Below, piece after piece: positions 23,897 through 29,326 of a stretch of 47,768 bases of DNA. The notes beneath the pieces are model-generated. The model was not told the origin of the DNA and did not search any database. It was given only the letters and a program-made list of their open reading frames with translations. The first letter of the stretch is position 1, and each line of letters starts with the position of its first letter. This DNA comes from Nitrospirota bacterium (GTDB lineage: Bacteria; Nitrospirota; Nitrospiria; SBBL01; JAADHI01), in assembly GCA_029261195.1 (NCBI GenBank), contig JAJDBU010000022.1, positions 1-47,768 of the forward strand, given 5' to 3'. Position numbers and translations under genes: made by a program.

Positions 23897-24145
23897 GTGC
23901 TGTACAAAATAGCGTTTAAACCTCAATCTTTAAAGGATGGAAAGAAAATACCCAAAAAAGAGCTTGAACGCATTTTTGAGAAGATTGAAGCACTCAAAGA
24001 AAATATGTCTGGTGATGTTAAGCATCTGACAGATACAGAACCCGAATATAGATTGCGAATTGGTGATTATAGGGTTTTGTTTGAAGTCGAAGAAGCGGGT
24101 ATTGTCGTTTACCGGATTAGACATAGAAAAGATATTTACAGATAA
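23897..24145 (+). CDS. ParE/RelE-type toxin-like protein
   Basis: This 82-residue protein has the pattern of the ParE/RelE toxin fold: YKIAFKPQSLKDGKKIPKKE at the start, a central helix, then EYRLRIGDYRVLFEVEEAG and a C-terminal VYRIRHRKDIYR. The family includes mRNA-cleaving RelE and gyrase-targeting ParE; which applies here cannot be read from sequence. The start is GTG with AAAGG just upstream. The likely antitoxin follows 16 bp later, so toxin comes first, the less common order. Confidence 0.8.
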   Translation: MLYKIAFKPQSLKDGKKIPKKELERIFEKIEALKENMSGDVKHLTDTEPEYRLRIGDYRVLFEVEEAGIVVYRIRHRKDIYR

Positions 24146-24161
24146 ATAAGGAGATAATAAT

Positions 24162-24359
24162 ATGTTTGCCTTGCATCCCAATATTTTAGAGCAGGATGGA
24201 AAAAAGCAGTTTGCTGTTATTCCCTATAAGGAGTTTTTGAAAATGCAGGAAGCGCTTGGTGATTACGAAGATTTGAAAGATTTACGCCAGGCAAAAGAAA
24301 CAGAAAAAAGTGCTCCTACAGTGAGCATGGAAGAAGCAAAAAAGGAGTTCGGAATATGA
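24162..24359 (+). CDS. Antitoxin-like small protein
   Basis: This 65-residue acidic, helical protein directly follows the ParE/RelE-like gene, with a strong AAGGAG before its ATG. Its start (FALHPNILEQDGKKQFAVIP, then YKEFLKMQE) and the acidic middle resemble the DNA-binding/neutralising antitoxins of RelB or Phd-like type that pair with RelE toxins. The assignment rests on size, composition and position. The pair lies between pnp and the M16 peptidase gene, which are often direct neighbours. Confidence 0.65.
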   Translation: MFALHPNILEQDGKKQFAVIPYKEFLKMQEALGDYEDLKDLRQAKETEKSAPTVSMEEAKKEFGI

Positions 24360-24452: not shown

Positions 24453-25709
24453 ATGATTCATAAACATCTCTTGGATAACGGCATCCGTGTCCTGGCCGAA
24501 AGAATTCCTTCCGTCAAGTCGGTGGCAATCGGTTTGTGGGTCAACATCGGTTCCCGAGATGAAAAGCCAACTGAACACGGCATGTCCCATTTTCTGGAGC
24601 ACATGTTTTTTAAAGGGACTAAGCGACGCTCGGCGAAGGAGATTGCCCTTGAGATCGACAGCATTGGCGGAGAGATGAACGCCTTTACCTCCCGGGAGAT
24701 GACCACTTTTTATGTGAAAGTCCTTGATGAGCATCTACCGGAGGCGATTGATATCTTGTCGGATAATTTCCTGTATTCACAATTTGATCCCGAAGAGATC
24801 GAAAAAGAACAGCAGGTCGTTCTCGAAGAAATCAAGATGGTGGAAGATGACCCCGAAGACCTTGTGCATGAGCTTCACCTCAAAGACATGTGGAAGGGCA
24901 ATGCTCTGGCAAGGCCGATACTCGGAACGCCGGAGTCTGTCTCAAGTTTCACCCAGCGAAAGATACTTAAATTCATTGCGCGAACCTATGATCCACATAA
25001 AATGGTCATTTCAGTGGCAGGCCGCTTTGATCAGGATCCATTGATGAAACGCCTGCAGGACACTTTCGGGCAATATTCAGCCTATGAATGCGATATCAAA
25101 GCAAGGCGGCCCGCAAAGATAAAATCCTCTGTTCTGATCAAAGAAAAAGACTTTGAGCAGGTTCATCTCTGTATCGGCTCGGGAGGTTTGGCTCAAGCAG
25201 ACCCGGATCGCTATGTACTCTACCTTCTCAGCACAATCCTGGGTGGCGGAATGAGTTCACGTCTTTTTCAGGAGGTTCGTGAGAATCGCGGCTGGGCCTA
25301 CTCGATTTATTCCTCACCCTCTTCTTATCAAAATGAAGGGCTATTTACGGTTTATGCGGGCACGAGCCCTCAGAATGCACCCAAGGTTGTTGATGTTATT
25401 CTGGAAGAACTTAAAGGTATCAAAGACCTTGCGGTCGATCATGCCGAGCTGAGCCGGGCAAAGAACCATATCAAGGGCAGCATGATTCTGGGCATGGAGT
25501 CGACCTCGAATCGTATGAGTCGGCTTGCAAAAGAAGAGCTTTACTTCGGTCGAAACTTTTCAATGCGAGAGGTCACTCAAGAGATCAACCGGGTGACCTC
25601 AAAACAAATTCAGACGCTTGCCAACAAACTTTTCACGCCAAAGACGCTCACCTTAACAGCGCTTGGTCGGATCGAGGCAGGAGCCTTCCCCAATAAGTTG
25701 ACAGTATAG
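24453..25709 (+). CDS. M16-family zinc peptidase (processing-peptidase-like)
   Basis: This 418-residue protein is an insulinase/pitrilysin (M16B) peptidase. The inverted zinc motif HFLEH (His46, Glu49, His50) is present, with a downstream acidic ligand probably Glu126 in VLEEIKMVEDDPED. The C-terminal M16 domain contains GGGMSSRLFQEVRENRGWAYS, a family signature. It is often encoded next to pnp, as here, and probably degrades peptides in the cytoplasm; no signal peptide is seen. A diverged second copy of its last 58 codons lies at 26409-26585, so the 3' end of this locus has been rearranged. Confidence 0.92.
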   Translation: MIHKHLLDNGIRVLAERIPSVKSVAIGLWVNIGSRDEKPTEHGMSHFLEHMFFKGTKRRSAKEIALEIDSIGGEMNAFTSREMTTFYVKVLDEHLPEAIDILSDNFLYSQFDPEEIEKEQQVVLEEIKMVEDDPEDLVHELHLKDMWKGNALARPILGTPESVSSFTQRKILKFIARTYDPHKMVISVAGRFDQDPLMKRLQDTFGQYSAYECDIKARRPAKIKSSVLIKEKDFEQVHLCIGSGGLAQADPDRYVLYLLSTILGGGMSSRLFQEVRENRGWAYSIYSSPSSYQNEGLFTVYAGTSPQNAPKVVDVILEELKGIKDLAVDHAELSRAKNHIKGSMILGMESTSNRMSRLAKEELYFGRNFSMREVTQEINRVTSKQIQTLANKLFTPKTLTLTALGRIEAGAFPNKLTV

Positions 25710-25739
25710 TATTATGCAAAAAAACACGGGGGAACAAAC

Positions 25740-25988
25740 ATGCCTGAAATAGCAAGATTTTATGGGATCGTCATAAAACTATTTTTCGGCGATCATCCTC
25801 CACCACATTTTCACGCAGTGTATGGTGAATATGTTGGTCTTTTCAATATCGATACCCTCGAAATGATCGAAGGCGACCTACCAAATAGAGCTAAAAAGCT
25901 GGTGATCGAATGGGCGAATACCAATAAAAATGAGATGAAAAACATGTGGAATCGTCAGGAATTTCACAAGTTGCCACCGCTGGAGTAA
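25740..25988 (+). CDS. DUF4160 family protein
   Basis: This 82-residue protein has the hallmark DUF4160 pattern: IARFYGIVIKLFFGDHPPPH followed by FHAVYGEY, and a C-terminal VIEWANTNKNEM with ELM-like helix residues. The His-rich HPPPHFHA stretch is the family signature. Its biochemical role is unknown. It is usually encoded directly upstream of a DUF2442 gene, as here (3 bp gap). Such pairs are often found in variable regions and behave in position like toxin-antitoxin modules, which is not proven. GGGGGAACA lies before the ATG. Confidence 0.85.
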   Translation: MPEIARFYGIVIKLFFGDHPPPHFHAVYGEYVGLFNIDTLEMIEGDLPNRAKKLVIEWANTNKNEMKNMWNRQEFHKLPPLE

Positions 25989-25991
25989 GAA

Positions 25992-26240
25992 ATGAAGCAT
26001 CCAAAGGTACAGTCAGCAATCGCAATGAATGACCACATCTTGGTGATTGAGTTTGATAATAAACAAAAGAAGAAATATGACATCACGCCATTGCTCGGAA
26101 AAGAGATGTTTTCTCCGTTAAAAAATCCTGCCTTGTTTAAGGCCTTGAAGGTAGAGCAAGGAGGCTATGCTGTTGTCTGGAATAATAGTATCGACATCAG
26201 TGAGTATGAGTTATGGCGCCATGGACAAGTCTTGTCGTAA
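25992..26240 (+). CDS. DUF2442 family protein
   Basis: This 82-residue protein fits DUF2442: a short beta-rich start (ILVIEFDNKQKKKYDITPLL), then FSPLKNPALFKALKVEQGGYAVVW, and the family-like end NSIDISEYELWRHGQ. Function is unknown. It is coupled to the DUF4160 gene. The pair sits between the intact M16 gene and a displaced fragment of an M16 gene end, which suggests that it arrived as a mobile cargo module. Confidence 0.85.
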   Translation: MKHPKVQSAIAMNDHILVIEFDNKQKKKYDITPLLGKEMFSPLKNPALFKALKVEQGGYAVVWNNSIDISEYELWRHGQVLS

Positions 26241-26245
26241 GGGCC

Positions 26246-26264
26246 TTCTCCCTCGCAGGGAGAA
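26246..26264 (+). terminator. Hairpin after the DUF2442 gene
   Basis: TTCTCCCT (26246-26253) pairs perfectly with AGGGAGAA (26257-26264) around a three-base loop, six bases after the DUF2442 stop. A T-rich stretch follows at a few bases' distance. It may terminate the DUF4160-DUF2442 transcript, though the T-tract is weak. Confidence 0.4.
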
Positions 26265-26325
26265 TCCATTTCTCTTTTATATGACTGCGGTCGTCAGCGC
26301 AGATTGCCGCGTCCTTACCTTGTCT

Positions 26326-26407
26326 GTTCCAGCGCTAGGTTCTACCTCCCTGAAATCCCCAAAAACATCCCGTTTTAATTCCGGAAATCCTGAAAATGTG
26401 TCTACTC
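26326..26407. repeat. Dispersed repeat, copy A
   Basis: This 82-bp stretch, from GTTCC to TGTGTCTACTC, aligns with 29244-29326 with one single-base gap. The last 31 bases match at 25 positions. It ends one base before the M16 gene fragment at 26409, so the repeat edge coincides with a rearrangement junction. I do not know the family; it resembles a small non-coding mobile or MITE-like element. Confidence 0.45.
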
Positions 26408-26408
26408 A

Positions 26409-26585
26409 GAAGAAATCTACTTCGGTCGAAACTTTTCAATGCGAGAGGTCGTTCGTGAAATTGACCGGGTAACATCAAAACAAATACAGTCACTGGCGAA
26501 TCAACTCTTCACATCCAAAACTCTCACATTGACTGCGCTCGGCCGAGTGACTCCAGAAACCTTTCCGGAGCAGCTCAGTACCTAG
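26409..26585 (+). pseudogene. Displaced 3' end of an M16 peptidase gene
   Basis: These 177 bases encode 58 residues plus a TAG stop, EEIYFGRNFSMREVVREIDR through FPEQLST. They align without gaps to the last 58 residues of the M16 peptidase ending at 25709 (about 42 of 58 identical). There is no start codon of its own, and the frame is not open upstream into a protease. It is therefore a remnant of a related but not identical M16 gene end, separated from the intact gene by the DUF4160-DUF2442 pair and a dispersed repeat. Confidence 0.85.
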
Positions 26586-26700
26586 GTGTCTGCTGCTATC
26601 GGTGCTGGGGGAAATACCCCTCTCTTTCATCACCGCATGACAATCCTTGTGCGGACAAACCCCTAGTTTCAAGTACTTAAGCTCTGATGAACGAGTCAAT

Positions 26701-26738
26701 AAAAAATGCCCCGCCTTAAAAAAAGACGGGGCATTTTT
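26701..26738. terminator. Bidirectional intrinsic terminator
   Basis: AAAAATGCCCCG pairs with CGGGGCATTTTT around an A-rich loop, giving A- and T-tracts on both sides. It can end transcription from the porin gene on the minus strand (stop at 26761) and from anything reading rightwards. The 115 bases before it (26586-26700) hold small inverted repeats but no gene. Confidence 0.8.
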
Positions 26739-26760
26739 CTGTCCTTCTTCGCGATCAACT

Positions 26761-27948
26761 TTAGTTGATCGCTATATCTACATCAAGTCTTGCCCGCCAC
26801 TGGCTGTCACTTGTTCCCCCGCTTTCCAGCTCAGAGATAGCAACATAAGGATGTACCACCACATCATTCATCACTCGGTACTGGACTCCAAGTCGATGAC
26901 TGTCATGATTGGTTTGAAACAGAAAGTCATCCTGAGAGGTCAAGGTCAGGACCGCATCCTGCTCGACAACTGCCCGTACATAGTAGAGCCTCCAGTTTCC
27001 CTTCTGACGGGTTGAGCCAACCGCTACGCCAACCATCCAGCCGGAGTCTTGAGGAATGTTTGCACCGGTGTTGTTGATGTATTCAACACTCAAGACCATC
27101 GGATAAGCGCTGCCATCATACAGTAAGGCGATGTAAGGGTTGATAATCTCAAAATCGGACGCGAAGCTTGAAGCGTTCAAGGTATTATTGCCGCATTTTG
27201 TCGGTCCGACACCCGTGGTCGCGTTTCCCCCACCCGTTGTTAGGTCCCCCCCGTTGTCGCAGAGAGTGGTGGCCCCGCCTTTTGAGAAATCATCGTAGTT
27301 ATAATATCCAACTGCGATATTTGTTTTCAGATGTTGCCCCAAGGAGAGCAAAACTGAGACTTGGGCAACAAAGGCGGTCATGTCATTTGTATTGTTCTCT
27401 TTGACTAGGTAATCACCCAGAATCAAATTGATGTTTTTGAGAGGACCAAGGTCTGTTGCCGTATAGGCGATGAATGCCCCCTCTGGCTGCACATCGACAT
27501 CCCAGACAAGATCACCGTAAACCGGATTTTTTTGAAAAGGGTGGGCAAATTTTCCACCTGTTAGCGAAAGCCCCGGAAGCGAATCGGGGTGGTAGTTGAC
27601 AAAAAACCGATCGAAGCTCAACTCAAAACTGTGAAATGCATTTCCGATATTTTGATGAGGAGAGTTGGGGTCATCCGGGTTTCCAGAAACAATCCGTACA
27701 CCCAAGGTGAATTCAGGACTCAATTCGTGAATGGCACCGAAGCGCAAACGCACCCGCTCCCTGTGACGGTCTGATTTATTCACGCCTTTCAGAGTGACTT
27801 GATCGAAGTCCGATTCATGCCGAAAACGCATATCCCCGAAAAAAGTTGTATCCGAAGAACCCGCAAAAGCTGAAGCGGTACAAAGTGTAAAAATGATGAG
27901 CAAAACGACAAAACCTCTTATAGTTTGTCTGATCTGTGTCATAGTCAT
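26761..27948 (-). CDS. Putative outer-membrane porin
   Basis: This 395-residue protein has a signal peptide (hydrophobic run 12-29, cleavage after ASAFA). The body alternates polar and hydrophobic residues as in beta-barrel strands, for example TTFFGDMRFRHESDF, RHRERVRLRFGAI and a terminal RARLDVDIAIN strand. It resembles the putative-porin (alginate-export or phosphate-porin-like) groups, but the substrate is unknown. A Gly/Thr-rich loop near residues 230-255 has two Cys that may form a disulfide. It lies 93 bp downstream of the carbonic anhydrase gene in the same direction, so they may be co-transcribed. Confidence 0.72.
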   Translation of the reverse strand: MTMTQIRQTIRGFVVLLIIFTLCTASAFAGSSDTTFFGDMRFRHESDFDQVTLKGVNKSDRHRERVRLRFGAIHELSPEFTLGVRIVSGNPDDPNSPHQNIGNAFHSFELSFDRFFVNYHPDSLPGLSLTGGKFAHPFQKNPVYGDLVWDVDVQPEGAFIAYTATDLGPLKNINLILGDYLVKENNTNDMTAFVAQVSVLLSLGQHLKTNIAVGYYNYDDFSKGGATTLCDNGGDLTTGGGNATTGVGPTKCGNNTLNASSFASDFEIINPYIALLYDGSAYPMVLSVEYINNTGANIPQDSGWMVGVAVGSTRQKGNWRLYYVRAVVEQDAVLTLTSQDDFLFQTNHDSHRLGVQYRVMNDVVVHPYVAISELESGGTSDSQWRARLDVDIAIN

Positions 27949-28041
27949 GGTCCTTTCAATTACCTTGGGGCTTCACCTCAATTTACCTTAGGGCTTCACC
28001 GGTTCCCATAAGTTACGGTTGTTTTTTTCAGATGATGTAAA

Positions 28042-28902
28042 TTAAGGCCAGATTTTTGAGAGAAGATCCGGATTGGTAACAAGGTTTCTTACGCCGTGTG
28101 CATGGTCTTCATCGAAAACATTGCCTTTAAACCACTTACCGACAGTCTCAATGTTAACCTTAGCGACTTTAGGGCGAACACTCCATGTCACTTGAAAAGG
28201 TGAACCTTTTTCATTGTAACCAGGTCCCGTAGTTGATCCAGCGAATTGAACAGGAGCACCAGTATTATTTGGGATGTTCATTGCTTGGTGTAGACCATCT
28301 ACTACGCTGTGCTTGCTCACTACACCGAAGTCCAAGGCATTTTTGTCATTGACTAAAACATATACCTGAGTCTCTACACGCAACTGAGGATTACCGATTG
28401 AATCACTTAGACACGAACCCAATGTTGGGCCCGGCTTGACCTGTGCGGTTGTGTGAACGTAGTGAACTTCAATCGTGTCTCCCGAGGAAAGACCACCGTG
28501 TTTGCCTGGGATGTCAAATGGCTTTAGCTCTGCTTCACTCAGATGCCCGGAATACTGGTAACCACTCTGGTATCCGTGTCCATCACCATTACCCGCATAC
28601 TTGGTAAACTCGCCACCCTTGTGTTCAGCGTTCTTGTGAAAATGAATATTACAGAGATTCATTTCCGTATAAGCGGGCGCAGAATTGAATGCACGGCCGT
28701 TATGACCAACATTTGAATCGATATCACGCGGTGCTTGAGGCCCGAAGCCTTTACCCATTGTATTTTTTGCAAGCGAGTCACGCTGTTTAGCGATCACTTG
28801 ATCAGAGACCGATCCATGTGCATCGTGACCTTCACTTGCTAGGCTGACACCTGTTTGTAGCAGCATAGACGCTGCAAGCAATATAAGAATATTTTTTTTC
28901 AT
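28042..28902 (-). CDS. Delta-class-type carbonic anhydrase, exported
   Basis: This 286-residue protein has a signal peptide (1-22, cleavage after SLA), so it should act in the periplasm. The motif CNIHFHKNAEHKG (84-96) and the later IEVHYVHTT (144-152) resemble the zinc site of carbonic anhydrases: His87, His89 and His147, with Glu145-x-His147-x-x-His150 matching the ELHLVH pattern of alpha enzymes. The overall sequence is like the delta-class family first known from diatoms and also found in bacteria. Cys84 and Cys164 could form a disulfide. Expected role: interconversion of CO2 and bicarbonate at the cell surface. The class assignment is from recall of the motif. Confidence 0.7.
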   Translation of the reverse strand: MKKNILILLAASMLLQTGVSLASEGHDAHGSVSDQVIAKQRDSLAKNTMGKGFGPQAPRDIDSNVGHNGRAFNSAPAYTEMNLCNIHFHKNAEHKGGEFTKYAGNGDGHGYQSGYQYSGHLSEAELKPFDIPGKHGGLSSGDTIEVHYVHTTAQVKPGPTLGSCLSDSIGNPQLRVETQVYVLVNDKNALDFGVVSKHSVVDGLHQAMNIPNNTGAPVQFAGSTTGPGYNEKGSPFQVTWSVRPKVAKVNIETVGKWFKGNVFDEDHAHGVRNLVTNPDLLSKIWP

Positions 28903-29243: not shown

Positions 29244-29326
29244 GTTCCGGGCCCTAAACTCTAACCTTCTAAAGTCCTACGAAAATAGCCTCATTAATTT
29301 TGAAAATCCTAAAATTGTGTCTATTC
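29244..29326. repeat. Dispersed repeat, copy B
   Basis: This 83-bp stretch, from GTTCC to TGTGTCTATTC, is the partner of the repeat at 26326-26407, in the same orientation. The conserved core is AAATCCT, then TGTGTCTA. It lies in the region upstream of the second porin gene. No open frame is associated with it. Confidence 0.45.

Follow-up and report, generated by a model that had tools for sequence, protein, structure and literature searches.

A DhiTA toxin-antitoxin pair between two diverged copies of an M16 peptidase gene end in a Nitrospirota genome, and the probable spread of such cassettes by recombination in gene ends

Introduction

The element e14 and phage 21 integrate into the 3' end of the icd gene of E. 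coli, where the incoming DNA supplies a replacement end for the gene and the displaced end is left at the far side of the insertion. Insertion accompanied by a long duplication of the target has been proposed for restriction-modification genes (Nobusato et al. 2000, in the summaries of that work given in PMC3874152, PMC3031569 and PMC1643837). Gene ends are also displaced in the orphan toxin-immunity arrays of CDI/Rhs systems, where new 3' ends push older ones downstream and the resulting arrays of partial ends are usable for homologous recombination (PMC4927057). Among toxin-antitoxin (TA) systems, the DUF4160/DUF2442 pair has been described under the name DhiTA (PMC8198452), and for a DhiTA pair from a Thermus plasmid transformants required the second gene (PMC12724237). 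It is still an open question how chromosomal TA pairs move and are maintained when they are not part of a mobile element, and the gene-end anatomy described here makes this question testable through genome comparison and simple transformation.

In the present work, we have analyzed a stretch of DNA of 47,768 nucleotides (the window), which constitutes contig C15 (JAJDBU010000022.1) of a 3.04-Mb, 77-contig Nitrospirota genome (G000; GCA_029261195.1), together with 195 other genomes of the same class. The organization of the locus, its occurrence in relatives and the generality of its layout are described below.

Results

A diverged second end of the M16 gene

The M16 peptidase gene of the window (24453-25709, on the + strand, as are all features of the window given below) was identified from its open reading frame, its Pfam domains (PF00675 and PF05193) and its synteny with 58 relatives, and it lies 3' of rpsO-pnp. 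Its present 3' end, consisting of the last 59 codons including the stop (R1; 25533-25709), recurs 876 bases downstream as a diverged second M16 3' end (R2; 26409-26585), which ends in a stop of its own, lacks a gene body upstream and was recognized by alignment, repeat finder and tree. A terminator-like hairpin (inverted repeat I3; 26702-26738) is located 3' of R2. An earlier note on this DNA had described a gap-free homologue of the last 177 bases of the gene at this position, and it is borne out both by the alignment, in which identity extends to 42 of 58 residues, to the stop and to 126 of 177 nucleotides, and independently by the repeat finder, which returns the direct repeat D1 (25532-25690 and 26408-26566; 75%). 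The insert between R1 and R2 is hence flanked by long direct repeats of the target sequence.

The mismatches between R1 and R2 are distributed over the first, second and third codon positions as 14/6/31. Because they fall mainly on third positions, both copies must have diverged as working gene ends, and the claim that their divergence exceeds that of a fresh duplication is upheld, the two behaving like orthologous coding sequences. The longest identical run between them is 33 nt (25542-25574 in R1 and 26418-26450 in R2, from an identity-run analysis), for which codon shuffling gives P = 6e-5, or P = 0.003 when the shuffling is restricted to codons of conserved residues. This identical core is present at the left edge of the homology in both copies, and the homology fades within about 10 bases upstream of it.

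Content of the insert

The insert contains a DUF4160 gene (25740-25988; PF13711, E 8e-19) and, 3 bp behind it, a DUF2442 gene (25992-26240; PF10387, E 3e-8), both scoring above the Pfam cut-off, so that open reading frames and Pfam agree with the earlier placement of these two genes between the M16 ends. The pair has the same genes, gene order and domain families as the systems described previously (PMC8198452; PMC12724237). It is thus strongly predicted to be a known DhiTA system, with a DhiT-type toxin and a DhiA-type antitoxin, an assignment that is made here from sequence; what is novel about it is confined to its genomic setting. The open reading frames and Pfam matches of the 0.7-kb insert hold the DUF4160 and DUF2442 genes only, and neither an integrase nor another recombinase was found among them. 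The insert is AT-richer than the M16 gene (GC 0.425 vs 0.483). Searches for a source of the insert returned only distant matches to DUF4160 among plasmids (best 63%, from Sarcina), without a donor, and the M16 end was not found in IMG/VR contigs or phage records.

The 168-nt spacer between the antitoxin gene and R2 (26241-26408) holds the small hairpin mentioned in the earlier note, which the centroid fold places at 26246-26264; taken over its full length, the spacer is no more stably folded than shuffled sequences (z = -1.0), and it has no Rfam match. The dispersed repeat that was reported to precede R2 proves to be weak: a search for repeats in the genome matches a 33-bp segment (26375-26407) to 29294-29326 at 82%, but finds no further good copy. 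With two copies only in the genome, this segment was rejected as a mobile repeat and the match is probably incidental.

Relatives of the locus and origin of the two ends

The nearest relative at hand is the uncultured Nitrospirota genome OFTM308 (G001), whose M16 protein is 67% identical over its length. All relatives have a single M16 end, but even the nearest shows only this 67% protein identity, while R1 and R2 differ by 29%, with a coding pattern. Among 196 genomes of the class, only that of the window carries a second M16 end, and the other 195 lack one. In a tree of M16 ends, R1 and R2 are sisters (UFBoot 98) and lie apart from all sampled relatives, and the tree therefore cannot name the native copy. 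Neither the donor nor the direction of exchange at M16 follows from the sampled genomes, among which no near genome without the insert is present. When compared with 18 relatives, R1 and R2 are equidistant (662 vs 665 differences at first and second positions), which indicates that R2 was under selection until recently and has not long been free to drift. As judged from these substitution patterns, both M16 ends belonged to functioning genes during most of the time since they separated.

The sister relationship of R1 and R2 is what an in-lineage duplicate would produce, and their coding-type divergence also fits two functional copies. The whole M16 gene could accordingly have been duplicated in tandem, with two working copies coexisting for long, the second being mostly lost and the TA pair landing between them. 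However, two full M16 genes in tandem, which the earlier note had named as the arrangement that would point to simple duplication and deletion, are absent from the 196 genomes examined; no other genome of the class has more than one M16 gene of this subfamily, or an additional end, and in the window's own genome neither a second body of this subfamily nor a remnant of one was found. Such a history would moreover need to have been repeated, each time independently, at metG, icd, pheA, dsbA and other genes discussed below, and always beside the same TA family, and we regard it as unlikely.

The surroundings of the locus also differ from those in relatives, where M16 lies directly 3' of pnp (with a gap of 74 bp in G001). 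In the window, a second TA pair (23897-24359), recognized from Pfam and synteny and consisting of a ParE-type toxin (23897-24145) and a RelB-like antitoxin (24162-24359), lies between pnp and M16; no flanking repeats were found at this pair. Behind M16, G001 has further core genes (locus L032, 11257-15707), which are GatB/YqeY-like, dnaG-like and rpoD-like as named from their translations, and in the window their place is taken by a porin gene and others (26586-28902), from which it follows that the neighbourhood has been rearranged. An unbiased scan that covered 1.0 Mb of the genome of the window gave seven direct-repeat pairs, and a gene end around a cassette was seen only at the window locus. 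The same genome has two more DUF4160 loci without bracketing repeats (L216 on G000:C53 and L217 on G000:C39) and, at a contig end beside an integrase-looking gene, a near-identical direct repeat of 236 bp (L363 on G000:C28; 17592-17826 and 19112-19347).

Gene-end copies around other DUF4160 genes

The generality of the layout was surveyed at 86 DUF4160 loci of the class. They were drawn from the highest-scoring part of a ranked list, and four loci have the dsbA site in common, so that P values give no more than a guide. Direct repeats bracketing the gene within about 1.5 kb are found at 26 of these loci (13/46 and 13/40), as compared with 6 of 815 background windows and none of 30 loci of a non-TA control gene, an acetyltransferase. 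An automatic criterion that requires a gene end and a third-position bias retains 11/86 DUF4160 loci vs 0/815 background and 0/30 control loci; this criterion misses clear cases (metG, permease and pheA) and lets in a few intergenic ones. About 60 of the 86 loci, including the two others in the window's genome, have no bracketing repeats. At six loci (L165, L168, L170, L183, L184 and L190) the brackets are multi-copy dispersed intergenic repeats, and these were not counted as gene ends. For HicA, 5 of 30 loci pass a loose criterion, with brackets that are mostly not clear gene ends, and 1 of 30 passes a strict one; hence, the case for generality beyond DhiTA is made by the dsbA hotspot described below and not by the survey.

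In at least 10 of the bracketed DUF4160 loci, the repeat copies the end of the adjacent host gene. The host genes concerned, by their Pfam names, include methionyl-tRNA synthetase (metG), Methyltransf_28, an ABC-3 permease, monomeric isocitrate dehydrogenase (icd), chorismate mutase/prephenate dehydratase (pheA), a DSBA-like protein (dsbA) and a sigma-54 regulator. The copied part is usually the 3' end, and in three cases the 5' end. The earlier expectation that other DUF4160-DUF2442 pairs would be flanked by M16 ends was not met among the pairs examined, which have the ends of other genes instead. Differences between the copies are mostly synonymous at metG (0/0/9 by codon position) and the permease (1/0/8), and the dsbA fragments (4/0/14, 2/0/8, 3/1/18 and 2/4/19, with more fragments likewise) show the same type of bias.

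These counts bear on whether the cassettes arose by insertion with a long target-site duplication, as for restriction-modification genes, the copies then diverging in place. The anatomy would be the same, since addiction genes between direct repeats of the target, of the order of 100 bp, are reported there (in the parts of PMC3874152 and PMC1643837 that deal with such insertions), and some dsbA fragments contain stops and are decaying, so that later decay does occur. A freed fragment, however, should decay evenly over codon positions, and nearly all coding cases show a bias to the third; nor is R2 of M16 evolving faster than the gene end. On this evidence we consider a long target duplication improbable.

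Arrays of gene ends at metG and dsbA

In the genome G014, four partial metG ends are stacked behind the gene (locus L205 on G014:C3), and the cargo between them comprises an MqsA-like gene with a small open reading frame, a DhiTA pair, a 213-residue TPR-like protein and a 223-residue protein. As this array holds non-TA cargo, addiction is not needed in every case. Three of the four congeners with a metG match have a single full-length copy, the match in the fourth ending at a contig end, and a polarity comparison with these four congeners singles out no native end. The metG copies share a nearly invariant left edge of 46 nt.

The 3' end of dsbA in Nitrospira is a hotspot where ends are stacked and several TA families occur, with downstream fragments in at least 12 of 79 genomes. 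Fragments are also found in the single-contig genome G069, which speaks against an assembly artefact. Their cargo includes DhiTA, HicAB (in G147, G090 and G211) and a set containing DUF2283, and their starts are spread over about 25 codons (from about codon 188 to 212 of 257).

The left edges at M16 and metG invite comparison with a site-specific integrating element, of which the M16 locus could be a remnant: the 33-nt tract would then correspond to the att core, the element would have brought a replacement end for the gene, and its integrase would since have been lost. An identical core at the left edge with diverged ends beyond it is the anatomy expected of attL and attR, and the 46-nt edge at metG can be read in the same way. 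The starts of the dsbA fragments, in contrast, vary; the 0.7-kb insert at M16 holds two TA genes alone; no integrase was seen in the dsbA and metG cassettes listed; and no phage or viral contig searched carries the M16 end. The earlier note had likened the module to elements that integrate at gene ends, and with no integrase or recombinase in the insert we consider the former presence of a classical element of this kind quite doubtful.

Evidence for transfer at dsbA

Comparisons between Nitrospira species suggest that the cassettes and the gene ends beside them may differ in history from the gene bodies. When independent closest pairs are compared, the 3' end of dsbA exceeds the body in divergence in 13 out of 14 (p = 0.0015), and the divergence rises toward the 3' end (0.39, 0.51, 0.57 and 0.69 of the genus mean); across the genus the end is not less conserved than the rest of the gene. 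The correlation of segment distances along dsbA, used to look for mosaicism, is weak throughout and not decisive. In most Nitrospira dsbA pairs, the cassette is more alike between species than is the body of the host gene: the identities are 96.4% vs 86% for G096-G202, 83.5% vs 76% for G051-G096 and, for the HicAB cassette of G090-G147, 86.6% vs 74%. The exception is the pair G037-G140, with 77.7% for the cassette vs 79% for the body. In these cassette pairs, the dsbA ends are often more similar to each other than the bodies are.

The genome G202 provides a junction. Behind its dsbA gene (locus L257 on G202:C131; 2598-4766 in gene orientation) there are two DhiTA cassettes that are 99.4% identical over 705 bp and run on identically into a dsbA end, after which they split into two different, synonymously diverged ends. 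Because the identity breaks down within the gene end, the crossover lies inside the dsbA end. The second cassette is preceded by another gene and not directly by a gene end, and its history is therefore not that of a simple tandem copy.

The polarity at dsbA is mixed. Of the two copies, it is not regularly the fragment that lies nearer to the closest relative; in most cases the present end is equally close or closer, so that a simple displacement of the native end by a foreign one is not confirmed at this gene. Mixed polarity of this kind is what an exchange with two homology arms would yield, because it makes both copies mosaics.

A single import by homology-facilitated illegitimate recombination, in which a homologous crossover within the gene is combined with an illegitimate join into the resident end and no two-armed donor is needed, is compatible with all data from the window, and it would explain the variable left edges as well as how the first gene-end cassette could arise. 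Taken alone, it accounts neither for the identical tract that marks the fragment's left edge nor, on the right side of the cassette, for the crossover inside the gene end of G202, and as the whole explanation it appears very improbable.

Discussion

Our analyses suggest that the M16 locus probably represents a DhiTA cassette that is held between xenologous copies of a gene end, that has spread by homologous recombination in these gene-end arms, and that is kept by addiction. The earlier proposal that the module entered by recombination at the 3' end of the M16 gene is in keeping with the intact state of the gene end, and the many DUF4160-DUF2442 pairs that lie between copies of host gene ends make recombination at gene ends a good general reading; however, the insert contains no recombinase to which the entry could be assigned.

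The spread of such cassettes by two-arm exchange could proceed as follows. Donor DNA consisting of the cassette and its flanking gene-end copies, which in the case of M16 would come from an unsampled close relative, would enter a related strain or species at the orthologous locus, where the two gene-end copies could serve as left and right arms for homologous recombination. The end of the resident gene would thereby be swapped, the gene staying intact and a second end being left behind the cassette. Recombination between the direct repeats could delete the TA pair, but addiction would act against such deletions, so that the repeats could persist and diverge, and more cassettes could be stacked behind the same gene. 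The first gene-end copy may have arisen through homology-facilitated illegitimate recombination. The anatomy of the loci, the coding-type divergence of the copies, the excess similarity of the cassettes and the junction inside a gene end are the observed elements of this scheme; DNA uptake, the action of recombination enzymes, the stabilizing role of addiction and the origin of the first copy are those that we infer.

It is further possible, and we put this forward tentatively, that these loci belong to a class of recombinase-free mobile cassettes, small and with mostly TA cargo, for which copies of host gene ends act as portable homology arms. Members of such a class would spread between species at orthologous loci, exchange the ends of housekeeping genes and build arrays. 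In some housekeeping genes, the final 50-70 codons may then differ in history from the rest of the gene, which matters for phylogenies and for the reading of gene fragments.

A partial search of the literature found no published account that joins TA cassettes with displaced gene ends, and the known systems each share some of the features described here. The insertions of restriction-modification genes, as far as they are set out in the sources cited above, likewise place addiction-type genes between long direct repeats of the target without a linked transposase; the present loci differ in that the cargo is a type II TA pair, the repeats are mostly ends of intact host genes, the copies are orthologue-like and the ends stack. 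With e14 and phage 21 they share an insertion at the 3' end of a protein gene, a replacement end and a displaced end at the far side, whereas here there is no integrase, the insert is 0.7 kb, the edges vary and many host genes are involved. In CDI/Rhs systems displaced gene ends are also piled up downstream, but there the gene end is the toxin, while here the ends are those of ordinary genes and the TA pair is a passenger. Finally, integron cassettes are similarly small, with one or two genes, often TA pairs, and form arrays at a fixed locus; at the gene-end cassettes listed here neither an attC site nor an integrase was noticed, and unlike in integrons, the repeated sequence in the present cassettes is the end of the host gene itself.
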